Source: Phlegmacium glaucopus
Taxonomy: Eukaryota > Basidiomycota > Agaricomycetes > Agaricales > Cortinariaceae
DNA: 27,691 nt
Direction of reading: 5' to 3'
Assembly: GCA_015039465.1 (NCBI GenBank)
Contig: MU130623.1
Span: 355,297 to 382,987 of the forward strand
Under the pieces are notes generated by a model, which saw only the letters and a program-made list of their open reading frames with translations, searched no databases and was not told the DNA's origin. Shown here piece after piece: positions 4,446 to 27,691 of this stretch. Each line of letters opens with the position of its first letter. The stretch's first letter is position 1. The position numbers were made by a program, and so were the translations under genes.

Positions 4446-4743
4446 TTTGGTCCTTCCATACTTATAGTCGTGTGTAACTTGATAGCCCGTTCCTAAGTAC
4501 AGTGTTATAGATCGAGTCTTTACGCAAGTCACAGCGAATAACATGACATGTCACGCGCATTCAAGAAACAATATGAAACGTCTATCCTAGTAGTATCTTG
4601 TATCATGACACAACGGAAGACGAGTCCGCATTTGTACCTTCGCTCACTGTCTCTCACTGTCTCTCCTATACCAGGGGTGCATTTCTTCGTCATTAAAGTG
4701 ACCCGCTACCTTGCCCACGTCTCTCACGCCCTTTGTCATCGGA

Positions 4744-6382
4744 ATGCATCGACCACTGCTAACGGATCTGCCACTCGATGTACAAATTCACATTTGTGAG
4801 CTCCTCCATCCATCCCAGATTCTTGCTCTTCGACAAGTAAGTAGCAGATTATTCAACCTTTCTTTTCAAGCACTCACACAAGCACACGCATATAGACCTG
4901 CAAGACTGTTTATGAGGCTACTTTACAACGGAGCGTCTGGATTCATGCGCTACATCACATATGTCGTGAAAACTCGCTCTTTCTTCCAACTTTTTCCATT
5001 GCTGCTATGTCTGTTGCCCAATTGGAACGTGCGGCTACTGCTCCACTTCGATGGATTGCGTTATCATCTTCGAAGGACAGAAATAATAATGAGGTTTTAC
5101 ATCCTCGTGGGATCCGAGTTATCGAAGATCCGTTTGCATCGACGAAGAATGTCCAGTTTCAAAACGCGCGGGAGTTGAGGAGCTTCACTAGTCTGTATCT
5201 CGTGCCAGGGGGACGCTACCTTGTGACTAGTTCGGATTGTCTAGGCCTATGGGACTTGGCATCCGTTTCAGACAGTGATATGACCTCCGATGGGAAACTG
5301 ACGATGTGGACTACTGAGATACCCGAATTTGGCCTTTGGTGTATTCAACCCACTCCTGATGGCCTGGGTATCCGAATACTTGCCAATAGCTCTCCTACGT
5401 ATGTCAATAATATCGCCTATCACAAATTTTATTATCTAATACTCTCACTCGTTGTATAGGTATAATTACGTCCTCACCCTGTATATCTTCGAGATATACC
5501 CCCAAAAAGAGACTCCTCAGTTCGCAAAAATTGCGGAGCTCATGGTCGACTTACCAGAAGAAGACCCAGAATTTGCAAAGTCCTCTTTGAATGGAAATAT
5601 AGTCGTAAACTACAACTCTGGGGAGGGGACTGTTGTAGTATGGGATTTCGTGGCGAACACTGTGGCAAGCTGGTTTATTAGCAACTCCAGTCACATCGAT
5701 GAGGTTTGTTGAATCCCTTTTTTCGCTACCCATGGTGCAGGTGACTCAGTAACCTCTTATTTAAAAGGTCATCAAAGTTACGGAAACAACCCTCATAACT
5801 ACTCACGCTCACTCTACTCCCTCCCTGTGGATATTCCAGATTCCCCCTCTGACACCATACTCATCACGATCACGACACGACATTAAATATCCCCCAGGAC
5901 TAGCCCCAGTCTTCATACTCAATGTAACTTCATCCGTCGTCCAAAACCCTGATAGCTGGTACTATGATGTTCCTATCTATATTGACGTCGAGAATCACGA
6001 AACTGGCAATTATGAACGGTCCAAACTTGATATTGCCTGTGATCTCAGCAACGTCTCTCTCGTACCAATCGCTCCTATAGCTGGCCAATACCCAACAGAA
6101 GATCAAAGGGGTGGTGATGTGATGTATTATAGGATCTGTGACGAAGGAATCGTAAATGATCATGAACTCTCTGAAACGATTGAAGTTCATACGTACCCAA
6201 CTTCATCTGGCATTTCTATGGGTTCTGGGCCGTCTTCCGACTCTCATCGTTCTCGACTTCCAAGTTTACACATCGATATGACACAGCTTGCTGTGGCCAA
6301 TAGCGCTTACAGCTTCTGTCCAGCGTCCGCTAGGCTTGTTTATGAAGACGACGAAGGTGTTGTCATTTCTGATTTCGTGTAA
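4744..6382 (+). CDS. F-box protein, array copy 1 (intact)
   Basis: Four exons: 4744-4836, 4896-5398, 5460-5703 and 5768-6382. The introns are 59, 61 and 64 bp with GT/AG ends. Splicing gives 484 residues with no internal stop. Residues about 3-35 are an F-box (MHRPLLTDLPLDVQIHICEL, then LALRQTCKTVYEATLQ across the first junction). F-box proteins normally bind Skp1 and bring substrates to an SCF ubiquitin ligase. The remainder has WD-like strands (LYLVPGGRYLVTSSDCLGLW, GTVVVWDF) and may form a beta-propeller substrate receptor. The conserved end is FCPASARLVYE...VISDFV. This start is chosen because all four copies begin here. The substrate is unknown. Confidence 0.85.
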
Positions 6383-6640
6383 AGTTGAGCATTAGAGAAT
6401 CGAGATCGCGTCACAAACAAAATTCATTTCATTCTTGATTCAATTCATCGTTAACCCGAGATAGTCGGGGAGTAGGTACTCCTTTTGTACTGTTGCAAAT
6501 ATTTTTCGGCAGCCAAAGGAAAAGAGAAGCTCGCTCGATAGGATCGTATGTCCTTCAAGTGTACCAGCACGTGCCGGAATAAACATTACAATTTGTATTT
6601 ATTTGTCTGGGTTGTCGAGCTGGTAAAGCTTTCTTTTAGA
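6383..6640. promoter_or_regulatory. Repeated spacer between F-box copies 1 and 2
   Basis: This 258-bp spacer resembles the spacers after copies 2, 3 and 4. They share an AGTCGGGGAGTAGGTA-like motif, a TTACTGTTGCAAA-like motif, and CATTACAATTTGTRTTTATT shortly before the next ATG. The latter could be part of a conserved promoter or 5' leader, since it recurs at the same place before copies 2, 3 and 4. No gene is seen in it. Confidence 0.45.
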
Positions 6641-9177
6641 ATGCATCGACCATTGCTAACGGATCTGTCCCTCGATGTACAAATTCACATTTGCGAGTTC
6701 CTCCATCCATCCCAGATTCTTGCCCTTGGACAAGTAAGCAGCAGAGTATTCGACTTTTCTTTTTAAGCACTCACACAAACACACGCATATAGACCTGCAA
6801 GGTTATACATGAGGCCACTTCACGACGGATCGTATGGATCCATGCGCTAAATCGCATATGTCGCGAAAACTTACTCTTTCTCCCAACTTTCCCCATTGCT
6901 GCTACAGTAGAAGTTCTCATACTGCATAGCCTCGGGACCGGCCATTGGGTTATGCATTAATAGATTTATGCAGAACGAAAGGTGTCACAAATTGTGACAT
7001 ATGTGACCCTCTGACCAATTGGGCGACAGCGTTACTCTATCCGTTTGGTTTTCGTAAAATAACTGGGTCAACAACGTTTGAGTAGAACTAATAAGACTTT
7101 CATGCAACAACTGGGCTCTGTACTTGCGTAATTGACAAGGCAATTCTAAGGAGAAGCTCTCACCTCCTGATACCTGGCACAAACTTTTTCAAGCCTTTCA
7201 CAGAGCTTCCATGAGTTCACGTCGCAAGGGCAAATCATTGACATCGACATCGTCATCCTCCGAGTCCGAATCATCAAGTTTGATGACTTCACCACAGGCA
7301 ACTATGCATGATAGTATTCTTTATAACAGAGCCTTAGGCTTTCGTATGTAAGGTTTTGCTTTTGCGCGAGCCTGAGCCTGTTTACGGGTGGGTTCAGGAC
7401 CAGCAGATATTTCCATCGACTTTGTATCCATGGTGTTTGCTCGACTTTTTATGAGGAAAATTCTGTCATTCCACCCTTAGTACCATACCCTGTTAATTTA
7501 AGCATTATTCTAATAAATTGCAAGCAGTTGGTGGCGTTCCCGACCCTATGTCGTCGCCATTCATCAGTACAAACAAAATTCCCACCTACTCCGATAATGC
7601 ATATTGGGGTCCCCAGGCCTATGCATTATGCATTATGCAATATGCACCCCATTTCCCTGCGTCCCATGGTGGTTCCGACGCCAGACCTATGCATTAATAG
7701 ATTTATGCATCATGACGTTATGCATTATGAAAACTTCTACTGTATGTCTGTTGCCCAATTGGAACGTGCGGCTACTGCTCCACTTCGATGGATTGCGTTA
7801 TCATCTTCGAAGGACAGAAATAATGATGAGGTTTTACCTCCTCGTGGGACCCGAGTTATCGAAAATCCGCTTGGATCGATGTGGAGGACTCTCCAACTCA
7901 GTATCTTGTGGACGTGGAACACCTCCATTGATCTGTATCTCGTGCCAGGGGGACGCTATCTTGTGACAAGTGGTCTGCATTGTCTAGGCCTATGGGACCT
8001 GGGACCCGTTTTAGATGGTGATAAGTCTGACGATGGGAAACCGACAATGTGGGCTACTGAGATAGACAATGTAGTAGGGTTTCGTGTTCATCCCACTCCT
8101 GATGGCTTGGGTATCCGAATACTTACCTATACTCCATTGTATGTCAATAATATTGTCTATAACAAATTTTATTTTCTAATACTCTCACTCGTTGTATAGG
8201 CTTGCTGGCGTCATCGCCCTTTATATCTTCGAGATATACCCGCAAGACGAGACTCCTGAGCTCGCAAAAATTGCGAAGCTCCTGCTCCGCTTATCAGGAC
8301 ATGGTACAACTTACTCTTTGAATGGAAATACAGTCGTAATCTACAGCCCTTTGGAAGGGACTGTTATACTATGGGATTTCATCGTAAATACTGCGGCAAG
8401 TTGGTCTATTAGCAACCCCAGTTTCAACGACGAGGTTTGTTGAATTCCTTTTTTCGCTACCCCTGGTCCAGGTGACTCAGTAACCTCTTATTTAAAAAGG
8501 TCATCAAAATTACGGAAACAAGCATCATAACCACTCACGATCACCCTAACCCCTCCCTGTGGATATTCCAGATCCCCCCCCTGACAATAAACTCATCATT
8601 ACTTAACATTGAAGATTCCCAAGAATTAGCCCCAGTCCTCATATTCAATGTAACTTCATTCATCCTTCAAAGACCCGATAGCTGGTACTATGACGTTCCT
8701 ATCTATATTGACGTCCTCGAGAGTCACGGAACTGGCAATTATGACCGATACAAACTTGGTATTAAGTTCCTCGAGAATTACCCAACTGGCAATTATGACC
8801 GGTGCAAACTTGATGTTGCCTGTGATCTCAGCAACGTCTCTCTCGTACCAATCTCCGCTGAAACCATCCAATACCCGATAGATTATCGAAGGAATTTGTA
8901 CTATAGGATCTGTGACGAAGGATTGATAAATCTTGCTAAATGCTTCGAAACGATTGAAGCTTATACGTACTCAACTTCATCTGGCACTGCTGCTGTGGGT
9001 TCTGGGCCATCTTCCGACTCTCATTGTTCTCAACTTCCAACTTTACACATCAGTACGACACGTCTTGCTACGATACGTCATGCTACGATCTTCGGACTTT
9101 CTGACAGCTTCTGTCCAGCGTCCGCTAGGCTTGCATATTACAGCCAGGGAAATATAGTCATTTCTGATTTTGTGTAA
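6641..9177 (+). pseudogene. F-box protein, array copy 2, split by an 838-bp element
   Basis: Exon 1 is 6641-6733, exon 2 is 6793-6904 continuing at 7745-8138, exon 3 is 8200-8434 and exon 4 is 8500-9177. Ignoring the insertion and one copy of the duplicated TA, the frame is open for about 503 residues, so the gene was intact before the insertion. The insertion falls in the methionine codon after LPTFPIAA, which is present in the other copies. The F-box half is now separated from the propeller-like half by stops. Residues in the R of LALRQ are changed to LALGQ. Exon 4 holds an internal tandem duplication of about 54 bp (TGNYDRYKLG / TGNYDRCKLD, about 8707-8815) that is absent from copy 1 but also seen in copy 4. 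Confidence 0.85.
6905..7742. mobile_element. Tc1/mariner- or pogo-type non-autonomous element with TA duplication
   Basis: The insertion is defined exactly by comparison with F-box copies 1, 3 and 4. TA at 6903-6904 is repeated at 7743-7744. The ends are CAGTAGAAGTTCTCATACTGCATA and its near inverse (CAGTAGAAGTTTTCATAATG...), about 26 bp with three differences. A subterminal motif, ATGCATTAATAGATTTATGCA, occurs near both ends in the same orientation (about 6953 and 7689). The minus strand between about 7440 and 6985 has remnants of a protein (an acidic DDSDSEDDDVDVND stretch and a basic helix LRKYRAQLLHESLISSTQT) broken by stops, perhaps the end of a decayed transposase. Confidence 0.9.
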
Positions 9178-9564
9178 ATTTGAATGTTAGATAATCTAGA
9201 TTGCACTCAGAATTCCTTTCATTCTCGATTCAATTCGTCATTAATCAGAGATATAAAAGTCGGGGAGTAGGTATTCTTCTCTTACTGTTGCAAATGTTTT
9301 TCAACAGTCAAACGAAAAGAGAAGCTCACCGGATAGGAATGTATGTCAATGTTCTGTGTGTCTGAACGCTACTCCGGAAACAGATCGACTTAGCAAAAAG
9401 TACTCCGACCGTGTTACGAATACGCCAAACTAAGCGACATATGGATTCAGGACTTGAGTACTTGGTTGGCAGGGGCAGGTAGCGTTAGAATTTGAGGAAA
9501 TAAACATTACAATTTGTGTTTATTTGTTTGGGTTGTAGAGCCTGTGCTAAAGCTCTCTTTTAGA
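9178..9564. promoter_or_regulatory. Repeated spacer between F-box copies 2 and 3
   Basis: This spacer has the same shared motifs as the spacer after copy 1, including CATTACAATTTGTGTTTATT just before the ATG of copy 3. It also carries a block around 9355-9470 (TCTGAACGCTACTCCGG onward) that recurs at 11420 and 14325. No gene is seen in it. Confidence 0.45.
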
Positions 9565-11214
9565 ATGCGACCATTGCCGCTAACGGATCTGTCCCTCGAT
9601 GTACAAATTCACATTTGCGAGTTCCTCCATCCATCCCAGATTCTTGCTCTTCGACAAGTAAGTAGCAGAGTATTCAACTCTTCTTTCCAAGCACTCACAA
9701 ACAAACGCATATAGACCTGCAAGGCTATACATGAGGCCACCTCACGACGGATCGTATGGATTCATGCACTAAATCGCATATGTCGCGAAAACTCGCTCTT
9801 TATCCCAACTTTCCCTATTGCTGCTATGTCTATGGCCGAATTAGAACGTGCGGCGACTGCTCCACTTCGATGGATTGTGTTATCATCGAAGGACAGAAAT
9901 AATGATGAGGTTTTATATCCTCGCAGGACCCGAGTAATCGAAAACCCCCATGCATTGTTGATGAAGACTCTCCAACTCCATCACTCGCGAAAGTTAAGGA
10001 CCTTCACTGGTCTGTATCTCGTGCCAGGGGGACGCTACCTTGTGACAAGGGGTCTGCATTGTCTAGGCGTATGGGACCTGGGATCCGTTTCAGACGGTGA
10101 TATGTCCTCCAATGAGAAACCGACGATGTGGGCTACTGAGATAAACAATTTAGTAACCCTTCGTGTTCATCCCACTCTTGATGGCCTGGGTATCCGAATA
10201 CTTACCTATAGCCATTCTCTGCCGTATGTCAATAATATCGTCTATCACAAATTTTATCATCTAATACTCTCACTCGTTGAATAGGTTTACTGACATCACC
10301 ATCTTCGAGATATATCCCCAAAAAGAGTCTCCTGAGCTCGCAAAAATTGCAAAGCTCACGCTCAACTTGCCAGAACGAGTTTTAAAATTCTCTTATGATG
10401 GAAATTCAGTTGTAACCTACAACCATGCGAAGGGGACTGTTATAGTATGGGACTTCATCGCGAACACTGCGGCAAGCTGGTCTATTAGCAACCCCAGGTT
10501 CATGGACGAGGTTTGTTGAATCCCTTTTTTCGCTACCCCTGATGCAGGCGACTCAGTAGCCTTTTATTCAAAAAGGTCATCAAAGTTACGGAAACAACCA
10601 TCATAACCACTCACGCTCACTGTACTACTCCCTCCCTGTGGATATTTCAGATCCCCCCTCTGACAACACACTCGTCACTACTCGACATTGAAGATCCCCC
10701 AGAATTAGCCCCCATCCTCAAATTCAATCTAACTTCATTCGTCCTTCAAAGGCCTGATAGCTGGTACTATGATATTCCTATCTATATTGATATCCTCGAG
10801 AGTCACGAAACTGGCAACTATGACCGGTGCATGGTTGATATTGCCTGTGATCTCAGTAAAACCTCTCTCGTACCAATTGCTGCTGAAACCGTCCAATACC
10901 CAATTAGTTATCGAAAGGAATGTGGTGTGACGGCGTACTATAGGACCTGTGACGAAGGATATAGGATCTGTGACAAAGGATTCGTAAATCTTTCTAAATA
11001 CTTGGAAACAATTGAAGCTTTTACGAGCTCAACTTCATCTGGCACTGCTGTGGATTCTGGGCCGTCTTCCGACTCTCATCGTTCTCAACTTCCAACTTTA
11101 CATATCAACACGACACGCCTTGCTATGGCCCGAGGGCATTCCAGCTTCTGTCCAGCGTCCGCTAGGCTTGTGTATGAAACAGAGGAGGGTGTCGTCATTT
11201 CTGATTTCTTGTAA
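9565..11214 (+). CDS. F-box protein, array copy 3 (intact)
   Basis: Four exons: 9565-9657, 9715-10223, 10285-10510 and 10576-11214, with introns of 57, 61 and 65 bp at the same positions as in copy 1. Splicing gives about 488 residues with no internal stop. The F-box reads LTDLSLDVQIHICEFLHPSQ, followed by LALRQTCKAIHEA across the junction. Exon 3 is 18 bp shorter at its start than in copies 1 and 4 (FTDITIFE). Exon 4 has a private small duplication, YYRTCDEG followed by YRICDKG, near 10940-10980. The role is as for copy 1: a likely SCF substrate adaptor with an unknown target. Confidence 0.83.
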
Positions 11215-12414
11215 ACTTGAACGGTAGAGAATCGAGATCGCGTCATAACGGGACCCCAAAATCCCTTCATTCTCAACTCAATTCACCGTTAACCAGAGAT
11301 ATAAAAGATATAAAAGTCGGGCAGTAAGTATTCTTCTTCTCCTATTGCAAACATTTTTCAGCAACCAAACGAAAGCAGAAGCTCGCTTGACAGGGGATCG
11401 TATGTCCATGTTCTGTGTTTCTGAACGCTACCGATCGACTTCGCAAAGGGTACTCCTGCCGTGTTAACGAATACGCCATATTAAGCGAGATATGGAGTCA
11501 GGACTCGAGTCCCTTGATGTGGGAGGGTTCTCAGACCGGTCGTGAAGGTTACATAACGAGATGGAAGGCGGAAGGATTGGATACATCTGAACACTATCCA
11601 CTACTCCTACATGTCTTTTATGTTGTGTATACGAGATTGAAACAGCAAGAGAAGGTGGCCGAGCGGGTGGACGAGATCAAGACTCATGGTACATAATTGA
11701 CGGTTGAATTTGAAATGGCTGTCGAGTGTCGAACGTTGGAGTTGATGTGTAAAATATTCAGGCGCAATAGCGAAAAAGATACCATCATAAGGTAGAACAT
11801 GTTATCTGCGAGCTCGAGTCATGACGACCTACACTGAAGAGAACTGGAGAGAAACTATGCTGACCACAACCGAAAGTATGCACGACGAGCAATTATGGAT
11901 ACCTTAGAACAGGAAGACAATGAACACGAGCGAAAGGCTAAATGTCAGGACATGGCCCTGGTCAAAGCCTGCCTGGGCACAGGTAGCAGTGGATAAATCA
12001 TAAAGAAACAAATGTTTTTTCAACGCCTTTTTATTTGTACTTGTTTGTCCAAACGAAAGACAAGCAACTCAAGGCAGAGCTCACTTTCAATTGATTTACT
12101 TATTCAATTGATCATTGAAAGATATTTTACAGACTGAAGCATAAATACTACACCAAATATACCAACAGCACATTGGAAAACCGAAACAAATCAAGCCTCA
12201 GGCCTCAGCGCTCAGCTTGAAAAGGAGGCTTGGGATACAGTCATATCTAAATACGCAATTTTGAGATATAGGTCCTCTTTAGAAGGTGGAGACACGCTTC
12301 AAAATCAGCCAAGCATTGATCGGCAGAAGAACGGCGGTTTAAACTTTACAATTTGTGTTTATTTGTCGTTTGTAGAAGCATAGCTTGTGTGGTAAACTTG
12401 TAGAATGAACTTCA
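11215..12414. repeat. Long spacer between F-box copies 3 and 4 made of duplicated blocks
   Basis: 11420-11500 matches 9355-9440. 11620-11880 and 11905-12060 match 3763-4060 and 4296-4445. 12080-12300 matches 14411-14620. Plus-strand fragments that look coding include EGYITRWKAEGLDTSEHY near 11545, LERNYADHNRKYARRAIMDT near 11840 and a helix reading EDNEHERKAKCQDMALVK near 11915. These suggest a dead gene copied along with the F-box units. The segment ends with the pre-ATG motif TTACAATTTGTGTTTATT. Confidence 0.6.
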
Positions 12415-14132
12415 ATGAATCGACCACTGCTAACAGATTTGCCCCTTGATGTACAAATTCACATTTGCCAGTTCCTCCATCCATCCCAGATTCTTGCTCT
12501 TCGACAAGTAAGTAACAGAGTATTCAACTTTTCTTTTTAAACACTCACACAAGCACACGCATATATAGACCTGCAAGGCTATACATGAGGCCATTTCACA
12601 ACGAATCATATGGATTCATGCACTAAATCGCATATGTCGCGAAAACTTGCTCTTTCTCCCAACTTTCCCCATTGCTGCTATGTCTATGGCTGAATTGGAA
12701 CGTGCGGCTACTGCTCCACTTCGATGGATTGCGTTATCATCTTCGAAGGACAGAAATAATGATGAGGTTTTACATCCTCGCAGGACCCGAGTTATCGAAA
12801 ATCCGCTTGCATTGATGATTAAGACTCTCCAACCTCCTGACTTGCAGGAGTGGGGGGGCTTCGCTGATCTGTATCTTGTGCCAGGGGGACGCTACCTTGT
12901 GGCAAGTGGTCCGCATTCTCTAGGTGTATGGGACCTGGGATTCATTTCAGATGGTGATATGTCCGACGATGGGAAACCGATGATGTGGGCTACTAGGGTA
13001 AACACGTTAGTGGGGTTTCGTGTTCATCCCACTCCTGATGGCCTGGGTATCCGAATACTTACCTATAGCTATCCTCCGTGGTATGTCGATAATATCGTCT
13101 ATCACAATTTTCATTACTATCTAATACTCTCACTCGTTGCATAGGCTTACTAACGTCCTCACCCTATATATCTTCGAGATATACCCAGAAAAGGAGACCC
13201 CTGAGCTCACAAAAATTGCGAGGCTCATGCTCGACTTACCAGAACAGGAACCAGAATATGCAGCTTGCTCTTTGAATCGAAATACAGTCGTAATCTACAA
13301 CCGTGTGGAGGGGACTGTTATAGTATGGGATTTCGTGGCGAACACTGCGGCGAATTGGTTTATTAGCAACGCCAGTTTTATGGACGAGGTTTGTTGAATC
13401 CTTTTGTCGCGATACCTCTCCTGCAGGCGACTCAGTAGCCTCTTATTTTAAAAAGGTCATCAAAGTTACAGAAACAACCTTCATAATGACTCACGCTCAC
13501 CCTCCCTGTGGATATTCCAGATCCCCCCTCTGACAACAAACTCATCACTACTCAACACTGAAGATCTCCCAGAATTAGCCCCAGTCCTCATATTCCATGT
13601 AACTTCATCCGTCCTTCAAAGACCTGATAGCTGGTACTACGACGCTCCTATCTATATTGACGTCCTCGAGAGTCACGGAACTGGCAATTATGACCGATAC
13701 AAACTTGGTATTATCGACTATATGGACGTCCTCGACAGCCACGAAACTGGCAATTTTGACCGGTGTAAAGTTGATATTGCCTGTGATCTCAGCAACGTCT
13801 CTCTGGTACCAATCGCCGCTGAAACCATCCAATACCCAACAGGCTATCGAAATAATTTTGGTGCAGTGACACGCTATAGGATCTGTGACGAAGGGCTCGT
13901 AAATGTTTTTAAACCTTTCAGAACGGTTGAAGCTTATACCAGCTCAACTTCATCTGGCACTGCTGTGGGTTTTTGGCCGTCTTCCGACTCTCATCGTTCT
14001 CAATTTCCAACTTTACAGACCAATATGACACAACTTGCTGCGGCCAACAGGCCTTTCTTCAGCTTCTGTCCAGCGTCCACTAGGCTTGTGCATACAAGCG
14101 AAGAAAATATGGTCATTTCTGATTTCTTGTAA
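12415..14132 (+). pseudogene. F-box protein, array copy 4, frameshifted in exon 4
   Basis: Exons 12415-12507, 12569-13080 and 13145-13388 are open and match the other copies (F-box reads LTDLPLDVQIHICQFLHPSQ). Exon 4 should start at 13456, but it has 7 bp fewer than copy 1 after ACTCACGCTCAC (about 13495-13501). That shifts the frame and meets a TGA near 13530. The rest of exon 4 up to 14132 is intact in the correct frame. An acceptor at TTCCAG 13515-13520 would skip the shifted piece and restore the frame, at the cost of about 22 residues, so a shortened protein is possible. The 54-bp internal duplication (about 13667-13765) is present as in copy 2. Confidence 0.75.
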
Positions 14133-14763
14133 ACTTGAACGTTAGAGAATGGAGATCGCGTCACAACAAACCTCAAATTTCCTTTCATTCTCGATTGAAT
14201 TCATCATTAACCAGAGATATAAAAGTCGGGGAGTAGGTCTTTTGCTTCTCTTACTGTTACCAGGGTTTTTCAGCAGCCGAAGCTTGCTTGATAGGGGATC
14301 GTGTGTCAATGTTCTGCATGTCTGAACGCTACTCCGGAAGCTGATCGACTTTGCAAAGAGTACCCTACCCAAATAAATCAGTCAACCAAGCAACCTCAGG
14401 CAGGGGAGAGCTCACTTTCAAGTCTCAATGATCATTGGACGATATTTTACTCACTAAAAACATAAATATTTATATGCTACACCGGCAACAGCACATTGGA
14501 AACAGAAACAAATCAAGCCTCAGGCCTCAGCGCTCAGCTTGCAAGGATGCTTGTGACACAGTCATATCTAAATACACAATTTTGGATATATGGAGTCCTC
14601 TTCAGAAGGTGGAAATAATATTACTAGTAATAATTCTGTGACATGTGTCGCTACTCATGTACATGTTTGCATAATATACATGTTCAGAAAATTGGGATGT
14701 AACAACTGGAATGCGCAAGGATCTGATTTGCAAAGGATATGTTGCGTCTTTCAAGTACCCATA
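14133..14763. repeat. Spacer after F-box copy 4, homologous to earlier spacers
   Basis: 14133-14360 resembles the other 3' spacers (ATATAAAAGTCGGGGAGTAG and TCTGAACGCTACTCCGGAA). 14411-14620 matches 12080-12300, including CAAATCAAGCCTCAGGCCTC. Because the 5' flank of copy 4 recurs after copy 4, this marks the right edge of the last duplication unit. No gene is seen. Confidence 0.55.
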
Positions 14764-18579: not shown

Positions 18580-19208
18580 TAGGGCTGCCAACCGTCCCGT
18601 CCACGGGGACGGCCGTCTAAAATCAACCCAGTGACGGGTGACGGTCCGTGTACAGACGGCCGTCTTTTTTGAAATCCAAAGGTCGGTCGGGTCGGGTACG
18701 GTATAAAGACGGCCGTGACGGCCGTACACGGTAAAACAAGGAGAAAATTCATTTTACTTGAAATATTCGCACAGTTAAAAATGTCTACAAAGCTACAGAA
18801 TATGTAATCTGGAATAAAAATTCTATGAAACCCACAATTAAGCTGGTTGATGACCAAATTGTTGGGACTGAAGCCAAATATTTAATTTAATTTATATTTA
18901 ATTTGTTTTTTAGCACTAATAATTGGTGTAAATAGGTCGGAGAATAGCTCCCCTGACTTCCCAGATTTATTTGAGAGGGAAATATTAACACAATTTTTGA
19001 ATAAATTGACTTTTTTGCATTTCTCGTTCAGTATACACCCGCTACCCGTGTACGGCCGTCCACGGCCGTCTTGAGACGGGTAAAGACGGTTCACGGACCG
19101 TTGAAACACGGCCGTGAATATTCAAGTTTTGAATCTTGTCGGGTCGGCATCCGTCACCGTGAGACGGTACCCGTGAACCGTCCAGGACGGGGCCGGTTGG
19201 CAGCCCTA
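18580..19208. mobile_element. 629-bp hAT-like MITE with perfect 8-bp target duplication
   Basis: ACTGGCAG at 18572-18579 is repeated at 19209-19216. The termini are inverted: TAGGGCTGCCAACCG at 18580 and CGGTTGGCAGCCCTA at the right end, with CCCGTCC continuing on both sides. Both subterminal zones carry many copies of ACGGCCGT in either orientation, and the middle is AT-rich and non-coding. An 8-bp duplication with short inverted repeats is typical of the hAT superfamily. It has inserted into the passenger gene of the larger transposon, so it is younger than that element's arrival or copy. Confidence 0.92.
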
Positions 19209-21448: not shown

Positions 21449-22510
21449 TCAAAACCACCCTCGAGCCTTCTCTGGCGTAACTGCCTCAAAACAGGCATCA
21501 ATAAGATCTTGTTCTGGAAAAGGGCTATCTATGAAGTGGTGGTAATATCGACAGAGGTGCACTTTCACTAGGAAACTGAATGTTAACCAACAATGAAGGG
21601 CAAGCATCATGATCAACATAGAAGCATACCGCAACTAAAACTCTCTTCAATTGGACTGAAGTCAGGTGAATATGGTGGCAAAAATATGAGGTGGCGACCA
21701 GCCGCTTCAATGACTTCTCGTAAAGCATCACTCTTATGTGTTGCACAGTTATCCATAATGAAGACACTGTGTGGCTCTGGATAAGGATTGGTGCAAGGAA
21801 TCTCAGAGATGAGAATCAGTATCTTTGAGAACTTTAAATCAGGCAGAACGACATACCAAATCATTGACAATGAAGTCAAAAAACTCTTCTCCATCAATGG
21901 AGCCTTCAACAGCTCGTGCGGCAATATAACCATTGAGAGTAAGAGCTGGTAGAACACTGTAGCGTGTTCCCCTGTCTAATGAGACAGTAAGAACAGGATC
22001 ATCACCAGATGATGCGCGCCCATATTTCCATATCAGTGTCCTGTTATCCTTGCTCGATTCATCGAGAATGACCATCTGTTCGGCAGTATATGTGTTCAGG
22101 ATATTGTACATCCAGTTGGCACGCAATTTGTGGTCCCGTTCAGCTGCTGCACGGCGCATGAGTTTGCGTGTTAGTCCCAGCTCCCTGAGATTATCGTGCA
22201 GGGCTGTTGTCGAGATTTGAACCTCATGATAAAGTGCCAACCATTCCCCAATCTCATCGAGGTAAAGTTCAGGGCTCTCTTGAATGAGGTCACGCAGGTC
22301 TTCAACTATGTCTGCAGAAAGTATGCGCCGCCTACCCCAAAGAAATGAGAGTGGATTGACACAACCATGCGTTTCATAGTTATTGTGCCAACGGTCAATA
22401 CTTTTGGGTGACACATCAAGAATATCCGCAATTTCATGCATTTCCCAACCATCCTCGAGCAACTGGAGGGCCCTCCTCTTTATGTCTGCACTGATGGGAC
22501 AATATACCAT
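21449..22510 (-). CDS. Tc1/mariner-superfamily DD34E transposase (DDE_3-like), intact
   Basis: Exons 22510-21857, 21801-21630 and 21567-21449 join through introns of 55 bp (GTATGT...AG) and 62 bp (GTATGC...CCTAG) into 314 residues without a stop. The N-terminus has helix-turn-helix segments (EMHEIADILDVSPKSIDRWH). The catalytic triad is D150 (QMVILDESS), D235 (VFIMDNCATH) and E270 (LPPYSPDFSPIEE), with 34 residues between the last two, which is the DD34E signature. PPYSP(D)xxPIE is the hallmark of IS630/Tc1 enzymes. It cuts at the inverted repeats and inserts at TA, which agrees with the TA flanks. The ATG at 22510 lies 47 bp inside the right repeat. Length and motifs suggest it may be functional. 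Confidence 0.9.
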
Positions 22511-22556
22511 GGTCAAGGAAGAGAAATATGTCTTAGAGACGGCCAGTTCTCATTTG

Positions 22557-25532: not shown

Positions 25533-26283
25533 AGTAAGAAAAACCAAGATAAAAATACTTTTGGTTCCTGATAATACACGGTTTGTATATTCAACAAGTA
25601 GCTCATAATCAATGAAAAATGGCCATATTGAATTCACTGCGATAAAATAAAACCACTTCAAAATGTGTTCCGGTGTTGAAATGACACCAGCACTGTGTCA
25701 CATGATCACCTCTTGATATACCGAGCCAGAGGGTCACTGAAATATATTGCCAAAGTGCCAGATCAGTGCCACATTGGATCACCAGGATGTAGGTCTTAAA
25801 TTTATGGGGGAAAGTAGAGCTTTTATACCAGAATTTATTACAGGTACCTTGCAGGTACCCATAATGGCCATCACTCGATGGGTCATGACAGGTATGTGCC
25901 ATCATGCGCTGGGCTGTCCAGCGTGTTGCTCAAGGCTCAAACGGTACAGTGATGTACCTGTGGTGAGGTCAGACTGCAAGTAGTAACATAGTTCGTGGGG
26001 TTAATGTAGATTTACTCAATAGAGTTTAGGAGAAGTTTGCAGTATTGAAATATGCAAGGAGAGAAAACCATGAAGATAGCAAAGTTCGTGAATATTATCA
26101 TTGTGAATAATAGCAAAGTACATGAAGTAGGTTAAAGAATGAGACTATTGACTTAGAACATTGCTGCAAAGTTTCTGGGATCAAAACTCTGGCTGTCTCT
26201 TGTTCACCTTGCCTCCTACTTGCTATGGATACTTAATACAAGAGTTGTAAACTAACCAGGCAGTACTTTACAGTGCCCCACGC
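25533..26283. other. No recognisable gene
   Basis: Short frames on both strands (for example minus 25609-25905) lack motifs and read like chance ORFs. I see no RNA gene or repeat here. Confidence 0.4.
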
Positions 26284-26655
26284 TTCCGAATGGAATCCGA
26301 GTGGAGTCCGAGCATTCCGACTGGATTCCCAGTGGAGTCCAAGTGGAGTCCAAGTGGAATCATGGATTCCGAATGGAGTCCACTCGGACTCCACTCAGAC
26401 TCTGCTTGGAGTCCAAGTCACTAAGTAGATTCCGAACAGAGTCCGAGTAGAGTCCGAGTAGAGTCTGAGTGGATTCCAAATAGAGTCCGAGTGGACTCTT
26501 AGTGGATTCTGAGTGGATTCCGAGTGGATTCCAAATGGAGTCTGAGTGGACTCTCAGTGGATTCCAAGTGGATTCCAAGTGGATTCCAAATGGAGTCTGA
26601 GTGGACTCTCAGTGGATTCCAAGTGGATTCCGAGTGGAGTCCGAGTGGAATCTCA
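26284..26655. repeat. 11-bp minisatellite with a 55-bp higher-order unit
   Basis: The unit is about GTGGATTCCAA, with variants such as GTGGAGTCCGA, ATGGAGTCTGA and GTGGACTCTCA. From about 26524 to 26640 five consecutive variants repeat as a 55-bp block. In the left third the array changes orientation for a short stretch (ACTCGGACTCCACTCAGACT near 26380), so it can fold back. The long open frames across it come from the repeat (33 bp gives an 11-residue period) and are not taken as genes. Confidence 0.85.
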
Positions 26656-26735
26656 GTAACATCTTATAAACATTTCAAGGAATATTTGGCTCTGTTACAA
26701 TGGTCTACTTTATAGTACAATATCATACCTGTAAC

Positions 26736-27297
26736 TCAATCTTCATTCTCTGTGTCAGAGTCATCTCCCTCCTGATCCTTCTTCTCCTTTTTCCACTTCT
26801 TCTGTCTTTGTCTCTCAAGAACATATTGAGTGTGGTAAAAGAGCATTGTATGCAAAAACCAATTAAAGTTGCCTGGTGTCATGTGTTTCAGAATAGAGTC
26901 AAAGCCACCCAGCCATGCATTCAATTGTTCACATGCCTAAATAAGCCATGCATTCAATTGTTCACATGCCTAAATAAGCCAAATTAATTAATATAAACTC
27001 ATAATAGAAATAAACATACCTGAGTATTGAATGCCTGTTTCAAATAAGGCTTATTTTTTCTGTCCAAGGCCATAACAACAAGATTAGGGGCAGAGCCATC
27101 TAATGGCCCAGGGTTACAAAACTTCCGGCAAAGAAAATCATTTGTGCGATGATTGATATAATGGTATGCATCAACAATGAAGCGACTAGTTTTCTGCCAC
27201 TTATTCCAAGATCCATTGCTGATAGCAGTCCTGAGCACAAGACAAGCCTTGTCAATGCATATATAGTCAGGCCGAGACTCCTCTGTGGGATACACCT
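26736..27297 (-). CDS. 3' part of a KDZ-associated cysteine-cluster (CxC5/CxC6-type) protein gene
   Basis: Exon 27297-27020 and exon 26936-26736 are joined by an 83-bp intron (GTATGT...TTTAG). The protein includes KVYPTEESRPDYICIDKACL, then FIVDAYHYINHRTNDFLC, DGSAPNLVV, and across the junction FNTQ-ACEQLNAWLGGFDSIL and MTPGNFNWFLHTMLFYHTQY. The end is highly charged (QKKWKKEKKDQEGDDSDTEN). From memory this matches basidiomycete proteins with a cysteine cluster found near KDZ (Kyakuja-Dileera-Zisupton) transposases; their role is not known. On the normal minus strand the frame upstream of 27297 (GGAR, then unrelated sequence) does not fit the family. The expected upstream protein is present in 27298-27691 in an impossible orientation. 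Confidence 0.75.
26912..26977 (-). repeat. Perfect 33-bp tandem duplication spanning a splice acceptor
   Basis: Two identical 33-bp units (26912-26944 and 26945-26977) each contain the acceptor TTATTTAG and the exon start GCATGTGAACAATTG. Using the acceptor of the first unit met by transcription leads in frame to a TAG. Using the second gives the family's protein. The intron therefore grew from 50 to 83 bp. Confidence 0.85.
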
Positions 27298-27691
27298 TAC
27301 GTGCACCTCCACATAAAACATGAGAAGTACTCGTACTTATACCTGGTGCAACAGCACACTTTCCCACGGTTTTATTGTTTCACCGTGGTTGGGTTCGTAC
27401 GAGAGTTGTGTTTTACGTTACCCTGTTTGTGTGAGTAGTGGTATCGGTAAGTTCAGAATGTCCAAGCCGCATACAATGTTTCTGGACCACTTTTAGACGG
27501 TACCTTAGGACGTTGGTCTCCTTTACATGTTGGTGTACTACTTTTACGGGGTCTTGGTGAAGCTTCGGTGATGAAATCAGGAGGGGCAAAAATAACACAC
27601 CTTTGTTAGACACGTGGGACACCACGTCAATAACGAACCCGGTTTAAACGTTTTAGACTTAGTGGTTGTTTATAGAACTTGAAGAACCTGT
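27298..27691. other. Order-reversed segment: upstream exon of the cysteine-cluster gene in a non-biological orientation
   Basis: Neither strand read normally encodes anything recognisable. If the plus strand is complemented base by base and read left to right (not reversed), it encodes GGVFCTLHEHEYGPRCRVKG, then CQNNKVAPTQACSQH (from about 27363), then QRPGENLPWNP, then RSHYFSPPRFYCVETICAPC (about 27564-27620), then AWAKFAKSESPTNILNFLD up to the last base. That is the expected upstream part of the gene at 26736-27297. The last codons (TTG GAC A) join in frame to AG GTG TAT at 27297, giving NILNFLD-KVYPTEES. One frame change, equivalent to a 2-base loss, lies between the two halves near 27470-27480. 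The order of bases was thus reversed without complementing. Confidence 0.85.

Follow-up and report, generated by a model that had tools for sequence, protein, structure and literature searches.

Errors introduced by gap closing in draft genomes usually take the form of wrong repeat copies or wrong joins. Reversal of DNA without complementing is, by comparison, a procedure used on purpose: as described in PMC11403998, which cites Tsuji et al., DNA treated in this way provides the null in NUMT searches. Here, we analyzed a window of 27,691 bases (C223:355297-382987) from a genome of 60.5 Mb in 259 scaffolds, in which scaffold C223 has 440,879 b. The original prediction, made from the letters of this window, held that its last 394 bases are reversed in order but not complemented. 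The features at the window's end are as follows.

26261-27297, minus strand: part of the same KDZ-type copy with its letters in normal order, comprising the coding exon beside the junction, the 3' part and the terminal tandem array (alignment to C28 and protein matches)
26285-26649, no strand: tandem array with an 11-b / 44-b period near the element's end (tandem-repeat analysis)
27298-27691, no strand: string-reversed, uncomplemented end before the N run; when un-reversed, coding sequence of the KDZ-type element with a CxC6 cysteine cluster (alignment and domain search)
27691: last base before the N run (C223:382988-385030, 2043 N)

Base order and coding content at the window's end

Alignment to C28:32017-31622, a normally ordered copy elsewhere in this genome, bore out the predicted reversal. 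Un-reversed, the segment was identical to this copy in 391 of 396 columns, as against 223/441 for the letters as given, 219/477 for the reverse complement and 234/447 for the complement. Since it matched normal copies only after reversal, the 394 bases are the right letters with their order turned and no complementing. Across the genome, the un-reversed segment had 34 match rows (best E 2.9e-199), the eight best of which were full-length at 97-99% identity. In the normal copies, its sequence directly follows the sequence that ends at window position 27297, and the junction of 27297 with 27691 was exact to the base, as had been predicted. An ordinary inversion is ruled out by the poor alignment of the reverse complement. 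Chance or low-complexity resemblance, for which one could point to the simple tandem array at the element's end, has a probability of practically nil and is likewise ruled out: the 391/396 identity extends across 394 b lying outside that array, the un-reversed segment reached the E-value above, and the as-given and reverse-complement controls gave far poorer alignments.

The correctly written flank (L030 1557-2594) aligned to C28:33012-32017 at 93.8%. The KDZ-type coding region also contained an exact 33-b tandem duplication at window 26911-26981 (2.2 copies, 100% matches), and on C28 two oppositely oriented KDZ-type copies were separated by about 9.5 kb (C28:29044-33012 and C28:42508-46536).

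Domain searches recovered CxC6 (PF18721) in one un-reversed minus-strand frame of 63 aa (E 9.6e-7; 29.4 bits against a curated cut-off of 27.5 bits), and no family in two un-reversed readings of another frame (203 and 110 aa), in five as-given readings or in the as-given ORF at 26999-27367. The un-reversed join was read as a protein of 203 aa, 93 aa of which come from the normal flank, and in the protein search 823 of 865 candidates matched it at E <= 0.001; the one as-given frame searched, a 76-aa reading, gave no candidates. The 120 listed matches spanned 73-100% of the joined query and so reached the un-reversed part, and among them was one protein named after CxC6. Names among these matches included Infundibulicybe, Lyophyllum, Tricholoma and Gymnopilus, all mushroom-forming fungi. 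The best match listed, P0001, showed 99% identity over the matched 83% of the joined query, came from a separate 1059-b contig (jgi) and read through the un-reversed junction with no break. The earlier claim of a cysteine-cluster protein held for the CxC6 cluster in the un-reversed reading; of the two peptides cited for it, GCQNNKV... and RSHYFSPP..., each has its own frame once the string is un-reversed, whereas they share one frame in P0001. This frame split arises because the copy at 27298-27691 lacks 2 bases that are present in the normal C28 copy.

Reversed edges at other N runs

The reversed segment ends at the border of an N run and not at a contig end. It had been correctly noted that the segment runs to the window's last base; the N run beginning at the next base accounts for this. 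The as-given letters of the segment were also found on C46, C5 and C219, and the edges of four N runs (C223, C46, C5 and C219) were read against the normal copy on C28. Compared with this one copy, five edges of the four N runs, on left and right sides and on four scaffolds, were reversed in place:

C223, left edge: 394 b
C46, left edge: 1336 b
C46, right edge: 209 b, with 115 aligned at 94.8% and 94 unaligned
C5, right edge: 243 b
C219, left edge: 1067 b

At C223, C5 and C219, the normal flank resumed at exactly the base expected from the normal copy, while the joins at C46 overlapped by up to about 10 b. At C5, the left edge matched in the given order, unreversed; at the right edge of C223, a reversed match to C28 was sought and none was found, and the base order scored as normal. 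The four N runs had been reached through reversed matches, which would bias any share of affected edges derived from them. In C219:316522-325000, where the next 5000 b read toward the right edge were still N, the N run was at least 8479 b long, exceeding the approximately 4 kb element copies on C28.

The prediction had left room for a deliberate edit as well as for string reversal during data handling. An edit made to this window alone, whether on purpose or by accident, to which the segment's end at the last base might be thought to point, is highly improbable: the same letters stand in the whole genome, and the four further N edges, on three other scaffolds, have other lengths and end points. 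Together, the whole-genome letters and the other reversed edges rule out an edit of this window alone, and the same four edges support data handling.

The control used 20 loci (177,178 non-N bases) selected because they surround known copies; their reversed strings were aligned to the loci at 1e-10. This produced 211 reversed-string matches, in which an edge segment was the query in 106 and the subject in 105; in all 211, exactly one partner lay within the five edge segments (3249 b), and no reversed-string match joined two interior stretches in the 177,178 sampled bases. As the five segments had been defined beforehand from the earlier alignments, the result excludes further reversed segments within the sample and is not a blind prediction of edges. 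A Markov score, with other loci as the training set, preferred the reversed order at 5/5 reversed edges (-3.7 to -140 bits, weakest at C46 right with -3.7 bits) and the given order at both other visible edges (C5 left and C223 right). In sliding 300-b windows the score was less sharp and dipped in the interior, where the lowest value, at 18905 (-20.6 bits), was below that of the C5 edge (-16.1). This interior stretch, 18905-19204, thus scored as reversed at -20.6 bits per 300 b; it had no reversed homology within the sampled loci, and the dip perhaps reflects strand-skewed composition.

Extent across the genome

A reversed 2255-b piece of the normal copy gave 23 genome match rows, equivalent to 20 places on 19 scaffolds once neighboring rows were merged (weakest place modest, at E 5.6e-9), and the recurrence of reversed sequence from this element family, together with the four further edges, contradicts a deliberate edit. 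DNA was read at 12 of the 20 places, comprising the four resolved against the normal copy and eight more. An N run was seen at 8/12, specifically at 4/4 of the resolved places and 4/8 of the further ones. The fetched stretches at C228, C81, C87 and C219:395630 (601-1101 b each) contained no N, and in three of these four the reversed part extended as far as one end of the fetched DNA. When the 120 listed proteins were compared with the eight further places, 6/8 matched after string reversal and 0/8 as given; at the four further places with N, the protein match stopped 0, 8, 55 and 186 b away (L055, L053, L050 and L052, respectively).

A second element type in the window was located as follows.

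21613-22516: transposase of the Tc1/mariner type, divided between two frames, with HTH_23 and DDE_3 domains

A 500-b mariner-type piece occurred at three genome places in normal order and at one string-reversed (C226:95362-95847, 88%), and the reversed piece on C226 indicates that the error affects more than one element. A reversed F-box-linked piece had no genome match. The window additionally held a tandem family of similar genes (4700-14360) with the repeated reading 'ELERAATAPLRWIALSSSKDRNN', in which one of two members tested had an F-box above the cut-off and the other had none. By eye, repeats resembling this family seem to recur at C223:400001-410000 (L032).

Copying of DNA by a biological process in reversed polarity, without complementing, might be suggested by the several places and two element families involved, and by the 4/12 places read at which no N was seen. 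Such a process is nevertheless extremely improbable and is rejected, as all five resolved segments end at N runs and no interior pair was found in the 177 kb sample. We know of no mechanism that copies DNA reversed without complementing it. Moreover, in PMC11403998, reversed-uncomplemented DNA is the control for spurious matches in NUMT searches, which also speaks against this process. Data handling is the best reading of 27298-27691.

Origin of the backward edges and comparison with known systems

Very probably, the segment is an assembly artefact in which an edge adjacent to N was reversed without complementing, likely through a half-done reverse complement in a gap-closing step. We infer that a gap closer added the reversed stretches as extensions. 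Such a tool would grow scaffold edges into gaps that had stayed unresolved inside repeats, and the extension would be written with only half of the reverse complement carried out. An extension stored as the opposite strand might have been complemented but not turned round, or one already in the right strand might have been turned round but not complemented, and either route would yield the reversed string. The unreversed edges (C5 left and C223 right) would then never have been extended, or would have been extended in the other orientation. PBJelly, for example, lengthens scaffold edges in this manner, although its involvement here would be a guess.

The reversal could also have arisen at another stage of the pipeline, such as the assembler's handling of contig ends, the merging of scaffolds or the conversion of formats, and reversed edges would fit any step that treats contig tips separately. 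We consider this unlikely: among the sampled loci, the affected bases were confined to tips of 209-1336 b beside N and the rest of the sampled scaffold parts were normal, whereas a format conversion would have reversed whole records.

The segment is best regarded not as a biological feature but as a quality warning for the genome. The error in the genome record appears to be systematic, and usual checks would miss it because aligners and repeat maskers examine only two strands. Backward edges break genes and repeats beside gaps, and they undermine reversed DNA in its role as a null. Self-alignment of a reversed assembly would reveal the error and is applicable to any draft genome. More tentatively, a gap closer in wide use may, through a half-done reverse complement, have seeded backward gap edges across many public draft genomes, although we hold this to be somewhat less probable than its opposite; if it were true, reversed-DNA decoys, presumed absent from genomes, would find true matches. 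Among the matches listed in searches of the open-licence literature, no published report of backward-written gap edges was found.

Three known systems are closest to this locus. The segment shares with KDZ-type elements carrying CxC6 (PF18721) the above-cut-off CxC6 match and the relatives of the un-reversed join, and differs in that the window copy is interrupted by an N run. With NUMT decoy DNA, as presented in PMC11403998, it shares the operation on the letters; the decoy, however, is a deliberate control presumed absent from genomes, while the segment stands in a genome record and would give true matches. Finally, as in gap-closer edge errors of draft genomes, the wrong sequence is limited to bases adjacent to N and lies within repeats, but here, unlike in the usual errors, correct letters stand in reversed order.
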